From the IMG/VR virus record IMGVR_UViG_3300022752_000405, positions 1 to 23,406 of that record: a stretch of DNA of 23,406 nt, one strand, 5' to 3'. Under the pieces are notes generated by a model. That model was given only the letters and a program-made list of their open reading frames with translations, did no database searches and was not told the origin of the DNA. Source of the stretch: a virus. Position numbers and translations under genes: made by a program. Position 1 is the stretch's first letter; each line of letters starts with the position of its first letter. Positions 15,580 to 23,406 of the stretch are shown piece by piece.

Positions 15580-15605
15580 CTACAAGTTGCGGTGATAACT
15601 TGTAG
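15580..15605. repeat. 9-bp-arm inverted repeat beside the 49-bp array
   Basis: CTACAAGTT and AACTTGTAG form a perfect inverted repeat around an 8-base centre, immediately before the tandem array. It could extrude as a hairpin or bind a dimeric protein. Confidence 0.6.
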
Positions 15606-15621
15606 AAACTAAGTTGCTCGG

Positions 15622-15895
15622 TAACATTTAACGATTGCATTAGTTTAACTATAACGAGCAACTTGCTAAGTATCATTTAGCAATCTCTTTGTGTTAACTA
15701 TAACAAGCAAGTCCTTAAGTAACATTTAGCAATCTGCTAAGTTTAATTATAGCGAGCAAGTCCTTAGGTAACATTTAGCAAGTAGGTTGCATTAACTATA
15801 ACGAGCAACTTACTAAGTAACATTTAGCAAGTAAGTTGTATTAACTATAACGAGCAAGTCCTTAAGTAACATTTAACGATTACCATTGTTATAGT
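15622..15895. repeat. 49-bp tandem repeats (5 full copies plus part), iteron-like
   Basis: TAACATTTA (TATCATTTA in copy 2) recurs at 15622, 15671, 15720, 15769, 15818 and 15867, exactly 49 bp apart each time. Each full unit continues through a variable stretch, then TTAACTATAACGAGCAA or a close variant, and ends in one of two forms, ACTTRCTAAG or AGTCCTTARG, used in mixed order. Copy 6 breaks off after about 29 bp. No gene lies in 15390-16268. Exact phasing, direct orientation and a winged-helix gene nearby fit iterons of a replication origin or a multi-site operator. The even 49-bp spacing without unique spacers argues against CRISPR. Confidence 0.85.
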
Positions 15896-15934
15896 AAAAC
15901 TAACTCCGCCAACGCTAACTAACAGGAACCGCCT

Positions 15935-16068
15935 AGAAACTAAGTCTGCAAAGTAAGTCAAATCTGCTAAGTCCGGCCAGGGCCAGCGTAACTAAGTCTA
16001 TGCTGCAACTAAGTCGCAAGGGTAACTAAGTAAGTAGGGCAAGTAAGTAGGCACAGCAAGTAAATCAT
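15935..16068. repeat. Cluster of TAAGT motifs
   Basis: About eight TAAGT words occur in 130 bp (AACTAAGTC, AAGTAAGTC, GCTAAGTCC, AACTAAGTC twice, AACTAAGTAAGTAGG, AAGTAAGTAGG), at irregular 8-25-bp distances. TAAGT also ends many of the 49-bp units. No protein-coding frame is supported here. The function is unknown. Confidence 0.5.
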
Positions 16069-16069
16069 G

Positions 16070-16269
16070 GTTAAATGAATGTACACAATGAATGTATGCT
16101 GTGAATGCAAAGTATGAATGCAGTGAATAAATGAATGCCTAGATGAATGCAGATTATGAATGAATGAATCGGCGTGATGAATGAATGTTTTAGATGAATG
16201 CTCTTGGTTAATGAATGCAGTTAATGAATGAATGTTATTCATGAATGAATGAATGCCGTGCATGAATGC
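16070..16269. repeat. ATGAATG heptamer array with 13+4n spacing
   Basis: Twelve units each consist of a unique linker, mostly 6 nt, followed by ATGAATG (one GTGAATG), sometimes extended by one or two AATG steps. Successive unit lengths are about 13, 13, 13, 17, 12, 21, 17, 13, 17, 17, 21 and 13 bp. Linkers such as TACACA, TATGCT, CAAAGT, GGCGTG and CCGTGC share nothing. The minus strand stays open for 84 codons, but 13 and 17 are not multiples of 3, so the repeat shifts frame from unit to unit and is not coding in design. Single ATGAATG or GTGAATG copies also flank the adjacent gene, near 16666 and 16708. Confidence 0.8.
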
Positions 16270-16673: not shown

Positions 16674-16739
16674 CTGAGTGAATGCAGCAAGTAAAAGGCG
16701 AAGAAAATGAATGAAAAAGGGGCGTGAAAAGGTAAGTTT

Positions 16740-16940
16740 GTAGGCAAATTAAGGGCTTGAGACGGTTGTGAGTCCCAGTGAGAAAGCCTGTCCACCACTA
16801 AAGTCTAGTACGGAAATCGCGTAAAAGTCGTCGCTGAGATCGACTGCGCCGCAACGGATCTCGAAAACACTTGATAAGTCTATTCTTAGCGGTGGTGACT
16901 TGCGACTCGCGCCAACTAAGTTGCAGGTTCAGGCTTTGAC
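16740..16940 (-). ncRNA. Structured leader with mutually exclusive helices (putative attenuator)
   Basis: The gene-free stretch 16674-16996 contains long-range complementarity. In the minus-strand RNA, AAAGCCTG (16937-16930) pairs perfectly with CAGGCTTT (16790-16783). Inside that, CACCAC (16897-16892) pairs with GTGGTG (16798-16793), and further in GAGATC (16862-16857) pairs with GATCTC (16841-16836). An alternative helix AGTCG/CGACT lies at 16845-16841 and 16830-16826. The same CAGGCTTT can instead pair with downstream AAGCCC (16757-16752), giving a hairpin that ends near CTTAATTTG. Two competing partners for one strand is the layout of an attenuator or riboswitch. It precedes the winged-helix gene. 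The ligand or signal is unknown. Confidence 0.5.
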
Positions 16941-16996
16941 CTCGCGCAGTGTAAGTATCACAGCAATGTAATTCACTTAAAAACTGATCTCATAAC

Positions 16997-17641
16997 TTAC
17001 TCATCAATGTCAGCTTCCTCTAGTGCAATAAGTAATTGCTCAACACCTAAAGCTCCTGATTGCAAACTCTTACCAACTTCAGCTAACTTTGCAGCGCTGT
17101 TAAGTAGGCCAGGTATGTCTCTCATATCAAGTAACCTATCAGGGTGATCAATGTAAGCATCAAGTGTACGTTGTGATAACGCAGCTAACTTAGCTGCATT
17201 AGCTGATAGACTTCTACCTAGAAACTCCTGTTGCTGCCTGTAAGTCTCTAGCCTCTGTTTATGTTCTATCGCCCTACTATCTTGCTCAAGTTTAAGTTTC
17301 TCAGCTAACATGTCCATGTCATAATCAGCAGCTCTCTGTTCCCAGTAATTACGCTTGGAGAGTTTTCGGATGGAAGTATCTGTTAAATTATAGATAGTAG
17401 TTATGTAGGATAAAGATCTACCATTTCCCGACCTAAGGTAAAAGTGAAAAATTTCGTATTCTTTTTGAGTTTCATTTACGGCGCCTCCGTTTCTAATCGA
17501 ATAGCTTTTTTCAGTTGTAACTTTATTTAAGATGGAGTCGTAGTCGGGCGCGATTTCAATGTTTGATTGCAATGACTCTAGGTCTTCTTCTTCAAGGTCT
17601 GTTTCGTCCTCAAAGTTATTGGAGTCAGTAACTTCTGTCAT
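16997..17641 (-). CDS. Probable terminase small subunit
   Basis: This gene encodes 214 aa; ATG is at 17639-17641. The first 35 residues are strongly acidic. Residues 58-112 read EYEIFHFYLRSGNGRSLSYI, TTIYNLTDTSIRKLSKRNYW and EQRAADYDMDM. This pattern (F..YL..G..RSL..I.......S...I...S....W..RA..YD) is a helix-turn-helix that I associate with phage small terminase subunits and related packaging proteins. A long helix (KLKLEQDSRAIEHKQRLETY) and a helical C-terminus follow, suiting oligomerisation. It would recognise viral DNA and hand it to TerL. It lies 3.3 kb from terL, and a terminator stands just upstream of it, so its expression may depend on readthrough. Confidence 0.65.
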   Translation of the reverse strand: MTEVTDSNNFEDETDLEEEDLESLQSNIEIAPDYDSILNKVTTEKSYSIRNGGAVNETQKEYEIFHFYLRSGNGRSLSYITTIYNLTDTSIRKLSKRNYWEQRAADYDMDMLAEKLKLEQDSRAIEHKQRLETYRQQQEFLGRSLSANAAKLAALSQRTLDAYIDHPDRLLDMRDIPGLLNSAAKLAEVGKSLQSGALGVEQLLIALEEADIDE

Positions 17642-17843: not shown

Positions 17844-17869
17844 GTATCTCCGATGCGGTTTTAACTAAC

Positions 17870-17897
17870 GGCGGAAAAAGTAAATACTCCTTCCGCC
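17870..17897 (-). promoter_or_regulatory. 5' leader hairpin of promoter 1
   Basis: On the minus strand GGCGGAAGGAGT-ATTT-ACTTTTTCCGCC forms a 12-bp stem with two G-U pairs. It begins a few nt after the predicted start of transcription. Related hairpins follow the other three promoters of this type. Confidence 0.75.
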
Positions 17898-17907
17898 GCA
17901 TGTGTTA

Positions 17908-17936
17908 ATTATACACCATTTTTACTGCTATGTCAA
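17908..17936 (-). promoter_or_regulatory. Consensus sigma70 promoter 1
   Basis: TTGACA (17931-17936) and TATAAT (17908-17913) are perfect consensus boxes with a 17-bp spacer on the minus strand, preceded by GCC. It drives the candidate small RNA and possibly the small terminase gene. Confidence 0.88.
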
Positions 17937-17975
17937 GGCAATCTCTAAATCAATTTAATCTAAGTCTACTGCGAA

Positions 17976-20521: not shown

Positions 20522-20546
20522 GCGGAAAGGTTGCTACACCTCCCGC
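20522..20546 (-). promoter_or_regulatory. 5' leader hairpin of promoter 2
   Basis: On the minus strand GCGG-G-AGGT-GTAGCA-ACCT-TT-CCGC forms two stacked stems just after the promoter. The inner stem AGGT/ACCT differs from those of the other leaders but keeps pairing. Confidence 0.7.
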
Positions 20547-20556
20547 CGTTGCGCTA

Positions 20557-20585
20557 ATTATAGCACTAATTCAATGCTATGTCAA
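20557..20585 (-). promoter_or_regulatory. Consensus sigma70 promoter 2
   Basis: TTGACA (20580-20585) and TATAAT (20557-20562) have a 17-bp spacer on the minus strand. The -35 box begins one base after the stop codon of the upstream gene (TGACTTGACATA). The spacer ends carry an inverted repeat ATAGCA/TGCTAT. Confidence 0.9.
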
Positions 20586-20586
20586 G

Positions 20587-20874
20587 TCAATCTTCGTCCT
20601 CCTCGGGTGGAAAGAAACCCTCTTCTCTGCCAACCTCCAAGCCCACTGTGTATGGACAGCAAACTTCAAAAGCTTGCGTCATTAAATCATCAAACTTTAA
20701 GGATTGCTCAGCATTGAAACAAGGTTCTCCCGTTTCAAAGTTAACGTATCCAATAAAGCTATCATCTGGATGAAAGCATAGGTTTTCCACCCGATACAGG
20801 TATCGGAAGAATTGCCTTGCATCATCCAAAGATTCAATCTTCTGTGGACAGGTAACGTCTTGGCTGTCTGTCAT
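20587..20874 (-). CDS. Conserved phage protein with HPDDSFIGYV motif
   Basis: ATG 20872-20874 overlaps the upstream stop as ATGA and gives 95 aa; an in-frame TTG five codons upstream is less likely. The core DDARQFFRYLYRVENLCFHP, then DDSFIGYVNFETGEPCFNAE and LMTQAFEVC, is a pattern I recall from hypothetical proteins of large phages (FF.YL.....L.FHPDD.F..YV...TGE..F.......D.LM...F.VC). The C-terminus is acidic (PPEEDED). Function unknown. It is the last gene of the promoter-3 unit. Confidence 0.75.
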   Translation of the reverse strand: MTDSQDVTCPQKIESLDDARQFFRYLYRVENLCFHPDDSFIGYVNFETGEPCFNAEQSLKFDDLMTQAFEVCCPYTVGLEVGREEGFFPPEEDED

Positions 20875-21524: not shown

Positions 21525-21860
21525 TTAAACATAAACCGAGCAGCTAGTTGCAACAAACTCAATGCTAAGTTTGTAACCAAAGGATGAGTCCTTGCACTTC
21601 TCGCAGATAGCGTTAAATCCTCCACTGCCACTTGTAGCTTTATCAATGCGATCCATCCAGGAAATTGAGCTATTAAACAAAACGTGAATCTGTATTTTCA
21701 TTTCGTCAATCGTTGGACAACGAAACTCATTGCTGGAATGAATCATCCATTTCCAGTCAAGTGCGTCCATGACTTTAATTACTTTGTCAAAGTCAAACTT
21801 TTCAATGATCTCGTCAACCGCCATGTAAGCGCGGCCAAGATTAGCGACAGAAGTTTCCAT
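21525..21860 (-). CDS. Conserved phage protein with MDALDWKWMI motif
   Basis: ATG 21858-21860 gives 111 aa. The frame stays open upstream through the hairpin leader, which is not coding. The core FDFDKVIKVMDALDWKWMIH, then PTIDEMKIQIHVLFNSSISW, GSGGFNAICEKC and LSIEFVATSC, resembles hypothetical proteins I recall from large phages (FDF.KV..VM..LDW.W....... P....E......L......... TGGF.........L...FV). First gene after promoter 3, with a pyrimidine-rich leader and no Shine-Dalgarno. Function unknown. Confidence 0.78.
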   Translation of the reverse strand: METSVANLGRAYMAVDEIIEKFDFDKVIKVMDALDWKWMIHSSNEFRCPTIDEMKIQIHVLFNSSISWMDRIDKATSGSGGFNAICEKCKDSSFGYKLSIEFVATSCSVYV

Positions 21861-21886
21861 TGTGAGAAAGAAAGTGAAAGAACAAA

Positions 21887-21924
21887 GTATGCGGAAGAAA
21901 GTAGTTACTCCCTCTCCCGCATAC
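21887..21924 (-). promoter_or_regulatory. 5' leader hairpin of promoter 3
   Basis: On the minus strand GTATGCGG and CCGCATAC form an 8-bp base, extended inward by AGAGG/CTTTCT with wobbles. A 44-base stretch (21880-21923) is identical to the leader of promoter 4. Confidence 0.8.
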
Positions 21925-21928
21925 ACAA

Positions 21929-21957
21929 ATTATAGCATATTTTGTACGCTATGTCAA
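21929..21957 (-). promoter_or_regulatory. Consensus sigma70 promoter 3
   Basis: TTGACA (21952-21957) and TATAAT (21929-21934) have a 17-bp spacer on the minus strand. The upstream gene's TGA stop (21959-21961) abuts the -35 box. The inverted repeat ATAGC/GCTAT spans the spacer. Confidence 0.9.
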
Positions 21958-21958
21958 G

Positions 21959-22204
21959 TCAAACTCTGTTGCCTCTGTACTTATTTTCTTGAATAAGAAG
22001 TTGTTTCGTGGCAGCCTTCGCAATGGAAAGCAGCTCATTTTGCATTACAAACTTGCGACCATTACGCCTGAACATGGCGTAAATGTTGCCAGTCAAAGAG
22101 TCCCACTGCTGCCTTTCAATGTCTGAAAAGTCATCGTGATCTCTTGACCTAAGCGCATGTTTGTAAGCAACTGAACCACGAACAATGTCGATAATGTCTT
22201 GCAT
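21959..22204 (-). CDS. Hypothetical helical protein
   Basis: This gene encodes 81 aa; ATG is at 22202-22204, with CTCC upstream and no Shine-Dalgarno. The protein is helical and basic: MQDIIDIVRGSVAYKHALRS, then RDHDDFSDIERQQWDSLTGN, IYAMFRRNGRKF and LLSIAKAATKQLLIQENK. It lies between the hairpin array and promoter 3, so it is probably transcribed with the array. No family is recognised. Confidence 0.72.
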   Translation of the reverse strand: MQDIIDIVRGSVAYKHALRSRDHDDFSDIERQQWDSLTGNIYAMFRRNGRKFVMQNELLSIAKAATKQLLIQENKYRGNRV

Positions 22205-22235
22205 AAAGGAGATTGAGTTGAAAGTTATCAGCGTC

Positions 22236-22529
22236 GGCGAAGCATGGAGAGCATGTTATTCTTCCATCTGCGCCAATAGATTCCGATTCTACAGTGTTTG
22301 TAGCGCCTGGAAAGACAGATGAATACATCTATCTCTGGTGGCCACCAAGTCTCATGAAACATGAGACTCAGTGAGACCCTGCCGATCCTAAGTGATGCCT
22401 TAGGCGGCAGACACCAAGGCTGAGATGAATCGACATGGAGCATGAAACTCCAATCCGATAGTGTCATCAACGTGACACGACGAAGAAAAAACTTCTCCGT
22501 CCAAACTAAGTCCATTTGTAATGGACTAG
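22236..22529 (-). ncRNA. Array of consecutive stem-loops, candidate structured RNA
   Basis: Nine to ten stem-loops follow one another in 294 bp between two genes. On the plus-strand text they are: GGC..GC.ATGGA/TCCAT..GCGCC (22236-22274); CTACA/TGTAG (22289-22303); AGATG-AATA-CATCT (22317-22330); TGGTGGCCACCA (22336-22347); AGTCTCATG-AAA-CATGAGACT (22348-22368); CTGCCG-at-CCTAAG/CTTAGG-CGGCAG (22379-22410); ATCG...TGGAG/CTCCA...CGAT (22429-22459); GTGTCA/TGACAC (22461-22478); GACG.AGAA/TTCT.CGTC (22479-22501); CTA-a-GTCCAT/ATGGAC-TAG (22506-22529). All neighbours are transcribed leftward, so the minus strand is the likely RNA. A 106-codon frame (22228-22548) also spans it and overlaps the upstream stop as ATGA, but its product is Trp/Arg-rich and unlike its neighbours. 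Confidence 0.6.
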
Positions 22530-22544
22530 AGTAATTGATGAAAG

Positions 22545-23024
22545 TCATCGGCTGAACTCCCCGATGGAAGACTTAAGGTCAGAAACTTGCTTTTCCAGTG
22601 CAGCAATTTTCTCGCGTGTTTCCGTAACCTCTAATGCCATGTAGTCTGTGCGAGCTGGCTCAAACTCTCGGAAGCCCTCAAGAATGCCATTTCTGATTGA
22701 GCAGATGTAAATGTCGCGCTTTACATAATCAACAGCACTCTCACTCACTCTGTATGTTTTGTCAAGAGTAGCGTAAACCGTGTATTGAAAACTCCAATCA
22801 AAGACAAGCCTGAATCCTCTTAAGTGCAATTCGGCTTGAATCGGATCCAAGATAATGGAAATCTTTTTTGTCGCTGATCTATACGGGGTTGTCTTGATAA
22901 TCTTTTGTCCGATGTACGGACGAAGCAAGTCCATTAACCGCAACTGAAGTTTATTTGCGGTTTGATTGACTGAGTTGCGTGTTGCAACTTGTACTTCAAG
23001 CAAGTCTGCTTTGGTGAACTTCAT
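22545..23024 (-). CDS. Hypothetical protein with C-terminal coiled coil
   Basis: This gene encodes 159 aa; ATG is at 23022-23024, after CTTACAAACACAGATTC with no Shine-Dalgarno. Residues 1-40 are helical (LQLRLMDLLRPYIGQKI). The middle is strand-rich (KKISIILDPIQAELHLRGFR, then LVFDWSFQYTVYATLDKTYR). The last 30 residues are a heptad coiled coil (VTETREKIAALEKQVSDLKS), which suggests oligomerisation. First gene after promoter 4. The 3' end contains CATCGG/CCGATG, a possible hairpin at the entrance to the downstream stem-loop array. No family is recognised. Confidence 0.78.
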   Translation of the reverse strand: MKFTKADLLEVQVATRNSVNQTANKLQLRLMDLLRPYIGQKIIKTTPYRSATKKISIILDPIQAELHLRGFRLVFDWSFQYTVYATLDKTYRVSESAVDYVKRDIYICSIRNGILEGFREFEPARTDYMALEVTETREKIAALEKQVSDLKSSIGEFSR

Positions 23025-23049
23025 GAATCTGTGTTTGTAAGGAACAAAG

Positions 23050-23085
23050 TATGCGGAAGAAAGTAGTTACTCCCTCTCCCGCATA
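23050..23085 (-). promoter_or_regulatory. 5' leader hairpin of promoter 4
   Basis: On the minus strand TATGCGG/CCGCATA forms the base with AGAGG/CTTTCT inside. It is part of the 44-base exact repeat of the promoter-3 leader. Confidence 0.8.
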
Positions 23086-23090
23086 ACAAA

Positions 23091-23119
23091 ATTATACCAC
23101 TATTTTAGTGGTATGTCAA
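23091..23119 (-). promoter_or_regulatory. Consensus sigma70 promoter 4
   Basis: TTGACA (23114-23119) and TATAAT (23091-23096) have a 17-bp spacer on the minus strand. The spacer is a perfect 9-bp-arm inverted repeat, ATACCACTA-AAA-TAGTGGTAT, running into both boxes. The upstream stop lies 7 bp away. Confidence 0.9.
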
Positions 23120-23126
23120 GTCAATC

Positions 23127-23406
23127 TTAGTAGAGCGATGTGTAAATCTCCACTGGATGTGAATATTTTTTAAGCTTACCAACAAAGCAATTTCTTTTCT
23201 TTGACCATACAACTTCTTCTGATTTAAGCAACTTTTCAAGTTCATAGCTAGGGGAATGGCTGTATCCAGCAGAAAGCTTTTCAGAAATGTCCTGCAAGGA
23301 ACTATCTTCTTCGTGATCAAAGCGACGGAGCCAATAACCAATTCTCCATTGAAAGAACTCTGTGTCGGCAATGCCGCCAGAGTCAATGAAGTAAAGTTTA
23401 CCATCA
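23127..23406 (-). CDS. Hypothetical protein, 5' part beyond window
   Basis: This is the C-terminal 92 residues of a protein whose start lies beyond the right edge; the stop TAA is at 23127-23129. The visible part reads DGKLYFIDSGGIADTEFFQW, then RIGYWLRRFDHEEDSSLQDI, and later VVWSKKRNCFVGKLKKYSHP. This frame gives a balanced soluble protein. The other open frame over the same DNA (23105-23404) is Leu/Ser/Lys-heavy and runs into promoter 4, so I treat it as a shadow. No family is recognised. Confidence 0.7.
   Translation of the reverse strand, partial: DGKLYFIDSGGIADTEFFQWRIGYWLRRFDHEEDSSLQDISEKLSAGYSHSPSYELEKLLKSEEVVWSKKRNCFVGKLKKYSHPVEIYTSLY

Follow-up and report, generated by a model that had tools for sequence, protein, structure and literature searches.

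The window analyzed here comprises the whole of a 23,406-base IMG/VR virus record, which is itself a fragment. All of its nameable genes (major head protein, portal, large terminase, and small terminase) are encoded on the minus strand, and the closest counterparts of its large terminase and portal occur in cyanosiphoviruses such as KBS-S-2A (~40% and 28% identity, respectively), which points to a phage of cyanobacteria as the probable source. When genome contigs were searched with the terminase, distant clostridial relatives were the sole matches. Our analysis centered upon two genes of a single operon, encoding proteins of 159 aa and 81 aa, and upon the spacer between them, which contains a densely structured block (Table 1). 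Since a consensus promoter lies upstream and no terminator-like site occurs inside the block, we infer that the block would be transcribed as part of the 159-aa/81-aa message from the promoter near 23119. A weak promoter-like site (22313-22286, 9/12) is also present ahead of the 81-aa gene.

Table 1. Coordinates of the structured block, its predicted hairpins, and associated features in the window.
Feature	Position	Strand	Remarks
159-aa gene	22545..23024	-	Upstream of block; 54% identity to L004 protein
81-aa gene	21959..22204	-	Downstream of block; 70% identity to L004 protein; lacks a strong promoter
Spacer between 159-aa and 81-aa genes	22205..22544	-	340 nt; contains structured block
Sigma-70-type promoter, TTGACA-N17-TATAAT	23091..23119	-	12/12, TG before -10; nearest consensus promoter upstream of block
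Structured block, nine hairpins	22236..22529	-	From folding and pair probabilities; 294 nt
H1	22527-22509	-	Predicted hairpin
H2	22501-22479	-	Predicted hairpin
H3	22478-22461	-	Predicted hairpin
H4	22459-22429	-	Predicted hairpin
H5	22411-22378	-	Predicted hairpin
H6	22374-22342	-	Predicted hairpin
H7	22336-22311	-	Predicted hairpin
H8	22303-22289	-	Predicted hairpin
H9	22274-22236	-	Predicted hairpin
Core of block, three arms	22300..22430	-	Arms reach 13, 15, and 11 bp; z -7.1 in isolation
106-aa open frame spanning whole block	22228..22548	-	ATGA overlap with stop of 159-aa gene
ACTTTCA, left flank repeat copy	22539..22545	-	Weak candidate target-site duplication
ACTTTCA, right flank repeat copy	22219..22225	-	Direct repeat, 7 bp
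Promoter/leader-hairpin module copies	23039-23127, 21877-21965, 20539-20593, 17856-17944	-	Also in L004 and L026

The block was originally noticed on the plus strand, which is the antisense of the genes, as a run of about ten stem-loops between two genes. Its position and its intercistronic placement are as claimed, while the number of stem-loops was slightly overstated, as the minimum free energy (MFE) structures contain nine hairpin loops on the minus strand and seven on the plus strand. A folding energy no better than that of shuffled sequence had been named beforehand as the outcome that would count against such a structure. None of 200 dinucleotide shuffles was as stable as the block on either strand, with the MFE of 22236-22529 being -101.9 kcal/mol (z -6.13) on the plus strand and -121.5 kcal/mol (z -7.22) on the minus strand, and the block also gave the lowest z when 150-nt frames were scanned across the entire window. 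The mean pair probability was no lower than 0.88 for any of the nine minus strand hairpins, regardless of whether the block was folded alone or together with 100 or 300 nt of flanking sequence per side (largest folding context, 944 nt). Long-stemmed hairpins are also more numerous than in shuffled sequence: with G-U pairs allowed and loops of 3-8, the block contains five hairpins with stems of ≥8 bp (shuffle mean 0.65, maximum 4) and three with stems of ≥10 bp (shuffle mean 0.09, maximum 2; 1000 shuffles in both cases). Several individual elements that had been singled out are real as well, including a 9-bp stem with a 3-base loop (AGTCTCATG TTT CATGAGACT, 22348-22368), which grows to 14-15 bp on the minus strand via two G-U pairs, a bulged stem at 22378-22411 (6+7 bp), and a GTCTCA direct repeat, the two minus strand copies of which start at 22377 and 22367. 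When the core is folded in isolation, a further stem closes its three arms into a four-way junction; this stem does not dominate when the full block is folded, and the modeled junction is therefore uncertain in that context.

The two strands of the block differ in their computed pairing. Stems on the minus strand include ten G-U pairs and lack any single A-C mismatch. With G-U allowed, this strand alone offers unbroken stems of 15, 11, and 10 bp, the best on the plus strand being 9 and 8 bp. Given these G-U pairs and the confinement of the longest stems to the minus strand, selection would appear to act upon a minus strand RNA, and the sequence favors this strand, which is also that of the surrounding genes, as the functional one. 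An array of palindromes operating purely at the DNA level would be expected to lack such a strand bias.

An open frame of 106 codons crosses the entire block, which raises the issue of whether the block might simply be a structured coding sequence. Such a frame is expected by chance in ~0.9% of shuffles for that particular frame and in 3.3% for any of the three. If it were a real small gene, its mRNA would be strongly structured as well, ribosomes would keep the hairpin array open, and they would end 24 nt short of the next gene. In agreement with this reading, the frame opens at an ATGA overlapping the stop of the upstream gene and takes up the spacer, and in a distant relative (G007) the homologue of the 159-aa gene is followed in the same ATGA position by an ordinary 80-aa gene, which is unstructured (z 0.2) and whose product shares a weak 21-residue similarity with the frame (BLASTP E 0.007; 8/500 shuffles). 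The frame also has a match to Pfam DUF1281_C (Api92-like) at E 0.0071, with 16.7 bits falling under the 22.8 cut-off, and its product is predicted to form six strands, with a pLDDT of ~63-76 in mid-chain. Against this, the mean pLDDT is 59, and a fold search with this low-confidence model returned no significant match. Likewise, no protein homologues were found in viral contigs, genome contigs, phages, plasmids, PHROGs, NCBIfam, or the PDB. The frame has a codon score of -0.09 per codon, compared with 0.10-0.28 for each of the 25 genes in the window. G occupies the first position in 14% of its codons as opposed to 24-40% in genes, and its composition includes 0.9% Ala and 6.6% Trp. Because both the codon score and first-position G fall below those of genes, the frame is probably non-coding, and we consider a genuine small gene unlikely. 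Furthermore, the structure of the block exceeds that of synonymous-codon shuffles in which the protein was kept (z -7.2); since such shuffles lose the structure, the fold is no by-product of the frame. With regard to the original proposal of a new phage non-coding RNA, a structured RNA without a matching Rfam family is supported, while its non-coding nature is likely yet unproven, given the frame of 106 codons open across the block.

Two related contigs, L004 and L026, which are the nearest relatives to span this site, retain both flanking genes (54-56% identity for the 159-aa protein and 70-73% for the 81-aa protein), whereas their spacer at the same site measures 29 nt rather than 340, leaving ~310 extra bases in the window. 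Based upon these two short spacers, the difference is either a gain in the lineage of the window or a loss in that of L004 and L026, and the lineage of this phage most likely acquired the block in one piece. G007 has no bearing upon gain versus loss, as its next gene differs. A small mobile element or captured piece of structured DNA, functionless for the phage, could have arrived at such an empty site with the flanking ACTTTCA repeat as its target-site duplication; removal of one repeat copy would leave a spacer of 20 nt, near the 29 nt of the relatives. However, ACTTTCA is frequent in this genome, with 7 occurrences on the minus strand compared with ~1.4 expected, and a flanking 7-bp match is expected by chance in 2-8% of trials, so that the repeat amounts to a weak indication of insertion. 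No second copy of the block was detected in the window or its relatives, no terminal inverted repeats were apparent by eye, and the G-U strand bias suggests selection on RNA. A functionless insertion accordingly strikes us as quite improbable. It should also be noted that the block is known from a single contig, with no other contig found to cover it, as might result from a chimeric assembly in which the block is foreign to this phage. Both of its junctions are nevertheless in order with the neighboring genes, and its G+C content of 46% is in keeping with the window, which renders an assembly artifact very improbable.

Searches for relatives of the block itself yielded little. No DNA homologues beyond chance were found in phages and plasmids. 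A model derived from the core recovered only itself among 38 sources, plus faint reverse-strand echoes, and had no match in 11 related viral records. A pattern search of viral contigs based upon an 8-bp palindrome produced five matches, all judged to be chance. Similarly, a 24-nt exact match between 22321-22344 and positions 1501-1524 of the huge-phage record LR745206 (L031; E 0.03) was attributed to chance, as it falls within an unrelated gene, which we take from its encoded residues to be glycoside-hydrolase-16-like. None of the 4227 models of Rfam 15 matched at gathering score using cmscan, and with E values up to 5 the lone match was a chance miRNA model located outside the block. Group I/II introns, ribozymes, and riboswitches were dismissed for lack of an Rfam match, as was membership in pRNA or HEARO. 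The covariance models of GOLLD and ROOL did not match the block either, and the window, which is a fragment, contains no tRNA genes. The original reader's failure to recognize the RNA as a member of GOLLD or ROOL agrees with the absence of Rfam matches. The block is a strongly structured, probably non-coding RNA sequence without known relatives; structured phage RNA, as a broad kind, is already known.

In the early genes of T7, RNase III processing sites are located between cistrons as single irregular hairpins of ~60 nt and recur at several junctions. The predicted stems of the block share the T7-type trait of intercistronic stem-loops on the transcribed strand of an operon, cleavage of the block being hypothetical. 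Unlike T7, it occupies one junction and consists of nine hairpins over ~290 nt. By analogy, we infer that the block would most likely act in cis upon mRNA processing, stability, or translation. A minus strand transcript would proceed from the promoter near 23119 through the 159-aa gene, the block, and the 81-aa gene, and the block RNA would form nine stable hairpins in series, separating the two cistrons. Its stems of 10-15 bp could provide double-stranded sites for host RNases as well as a barrier to 3' exonucleases, such that the upstream message might be cut or protected independently of the downstream message, and translation of the 81-aa gene could follow a rate of its own. No particular RNase site is singled out by the sequence of the block. 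An orphan structured RNA within an operon mRNA, acting in cis and probably gained as a unit, is accordingly the reading we tentatively prefer, with confidence somewhat short of even. The ~300 spacer bases would be a rare expense for a compact phage genome, and the block versus the 29 nt of the relatives offers a clean with/without pair for assessing the role of a structured intercistronic RNA. It further suggests that a single phage group can acquire or lose structured intercistronic RNAs.

The main rival to a cis-acting element is a discrete phage non-coding RNA that is cut from the operon transcript and acts in trans by binding a protein or RNA of either the host or the phage, for instance as a decoy for a nuclease or defense protein. 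The dense fold and compact three-arm core of the block are compatible with such a role, and there are precedents among phages. ICP1 produces an abundant transcript of ~800 nt from an orf-less space of ~1 kb, illustrating that phage non-coding RNAs can top phage transcript abundance (PMC7567579); the block is similar in being a putative phage non-coding RNA with no tRNAs nearby, but the ICP1 RNA is ~800 nt. Staphylococcal phages give rise to cabRNA, a structured RNA of ~400 nt that derives from terminase genes, is recognized by CBASS cyclases, and lacks shared sequence between different phages (PMC10686824). Like cabRNA, the block would belong to an operon and yield a structured phage RNA several hundred nt long, whereas it resides in another operon, with the large terminase gene ~8.5 kb away. 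cabRNA is characterized by binding to a CD-NTase and activating it. GOLLD and ROOL, which are ~650 to >800 nt in length, are often found near tRNAs and have conserved cores (PMC12286853). The block resembles them in being phage-borne and elaborately structured, but it is about half as long, has no Rfam match, and has no tRNA in the window. A trans-acting RNA must also be weighed against the lack of a strong promoter or terminator belonging to the block, the absence of long complementarity between the block and the remainder of the window, and the missing family match; we view it as possible but rather unlikely. It is more doubtful still that the block, as a gained array of nine hairpins in an operon, represents a previously undescribed family of structured phage RNAs, as its first known example, operating in trans on a host factor such as a nuclease or defense sensor or forming a defined particle.

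Several other structured or repeated sites were evident in the window. A module consisting of a sigma-70-type promoter and a leader hairpin (TGCGG..AGGnGTAACnACTTT..CCGCA) occurs ahead of several early operons. Among 11 copies, the hairpin stem had a covariation score of 0.348, which none of 500 shuffles reached, although kinship of the sequences inflates such counts, and four of its pairs are altered on both sides. Judging from these copies, the module looks like a 5'-leader RNA common to this phage group. Among the 150-nt frames scanned, 21851-22000 on the minus strand ranks second in structure (z -6.2), and it includes one of these modules. Directly downstream of the small terminase gene, a non-coding region on the minus strand (16737-16999) carries a conserved motif, GAGATCCNTTGCGGCGCAGTCGATCTCAG, that L002, L004, L005, and the distant L030 share apart from a few changes, making this region a candidate packaging (cos/pac) site or structured RNA. 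Lastly, 15583-15900 contains ~6 copies of a 49-bp tandem repeat, possibly iterons or operators, and the adjoining region at 16054-16268 is dense in ATGAATGAATG simple repeats.
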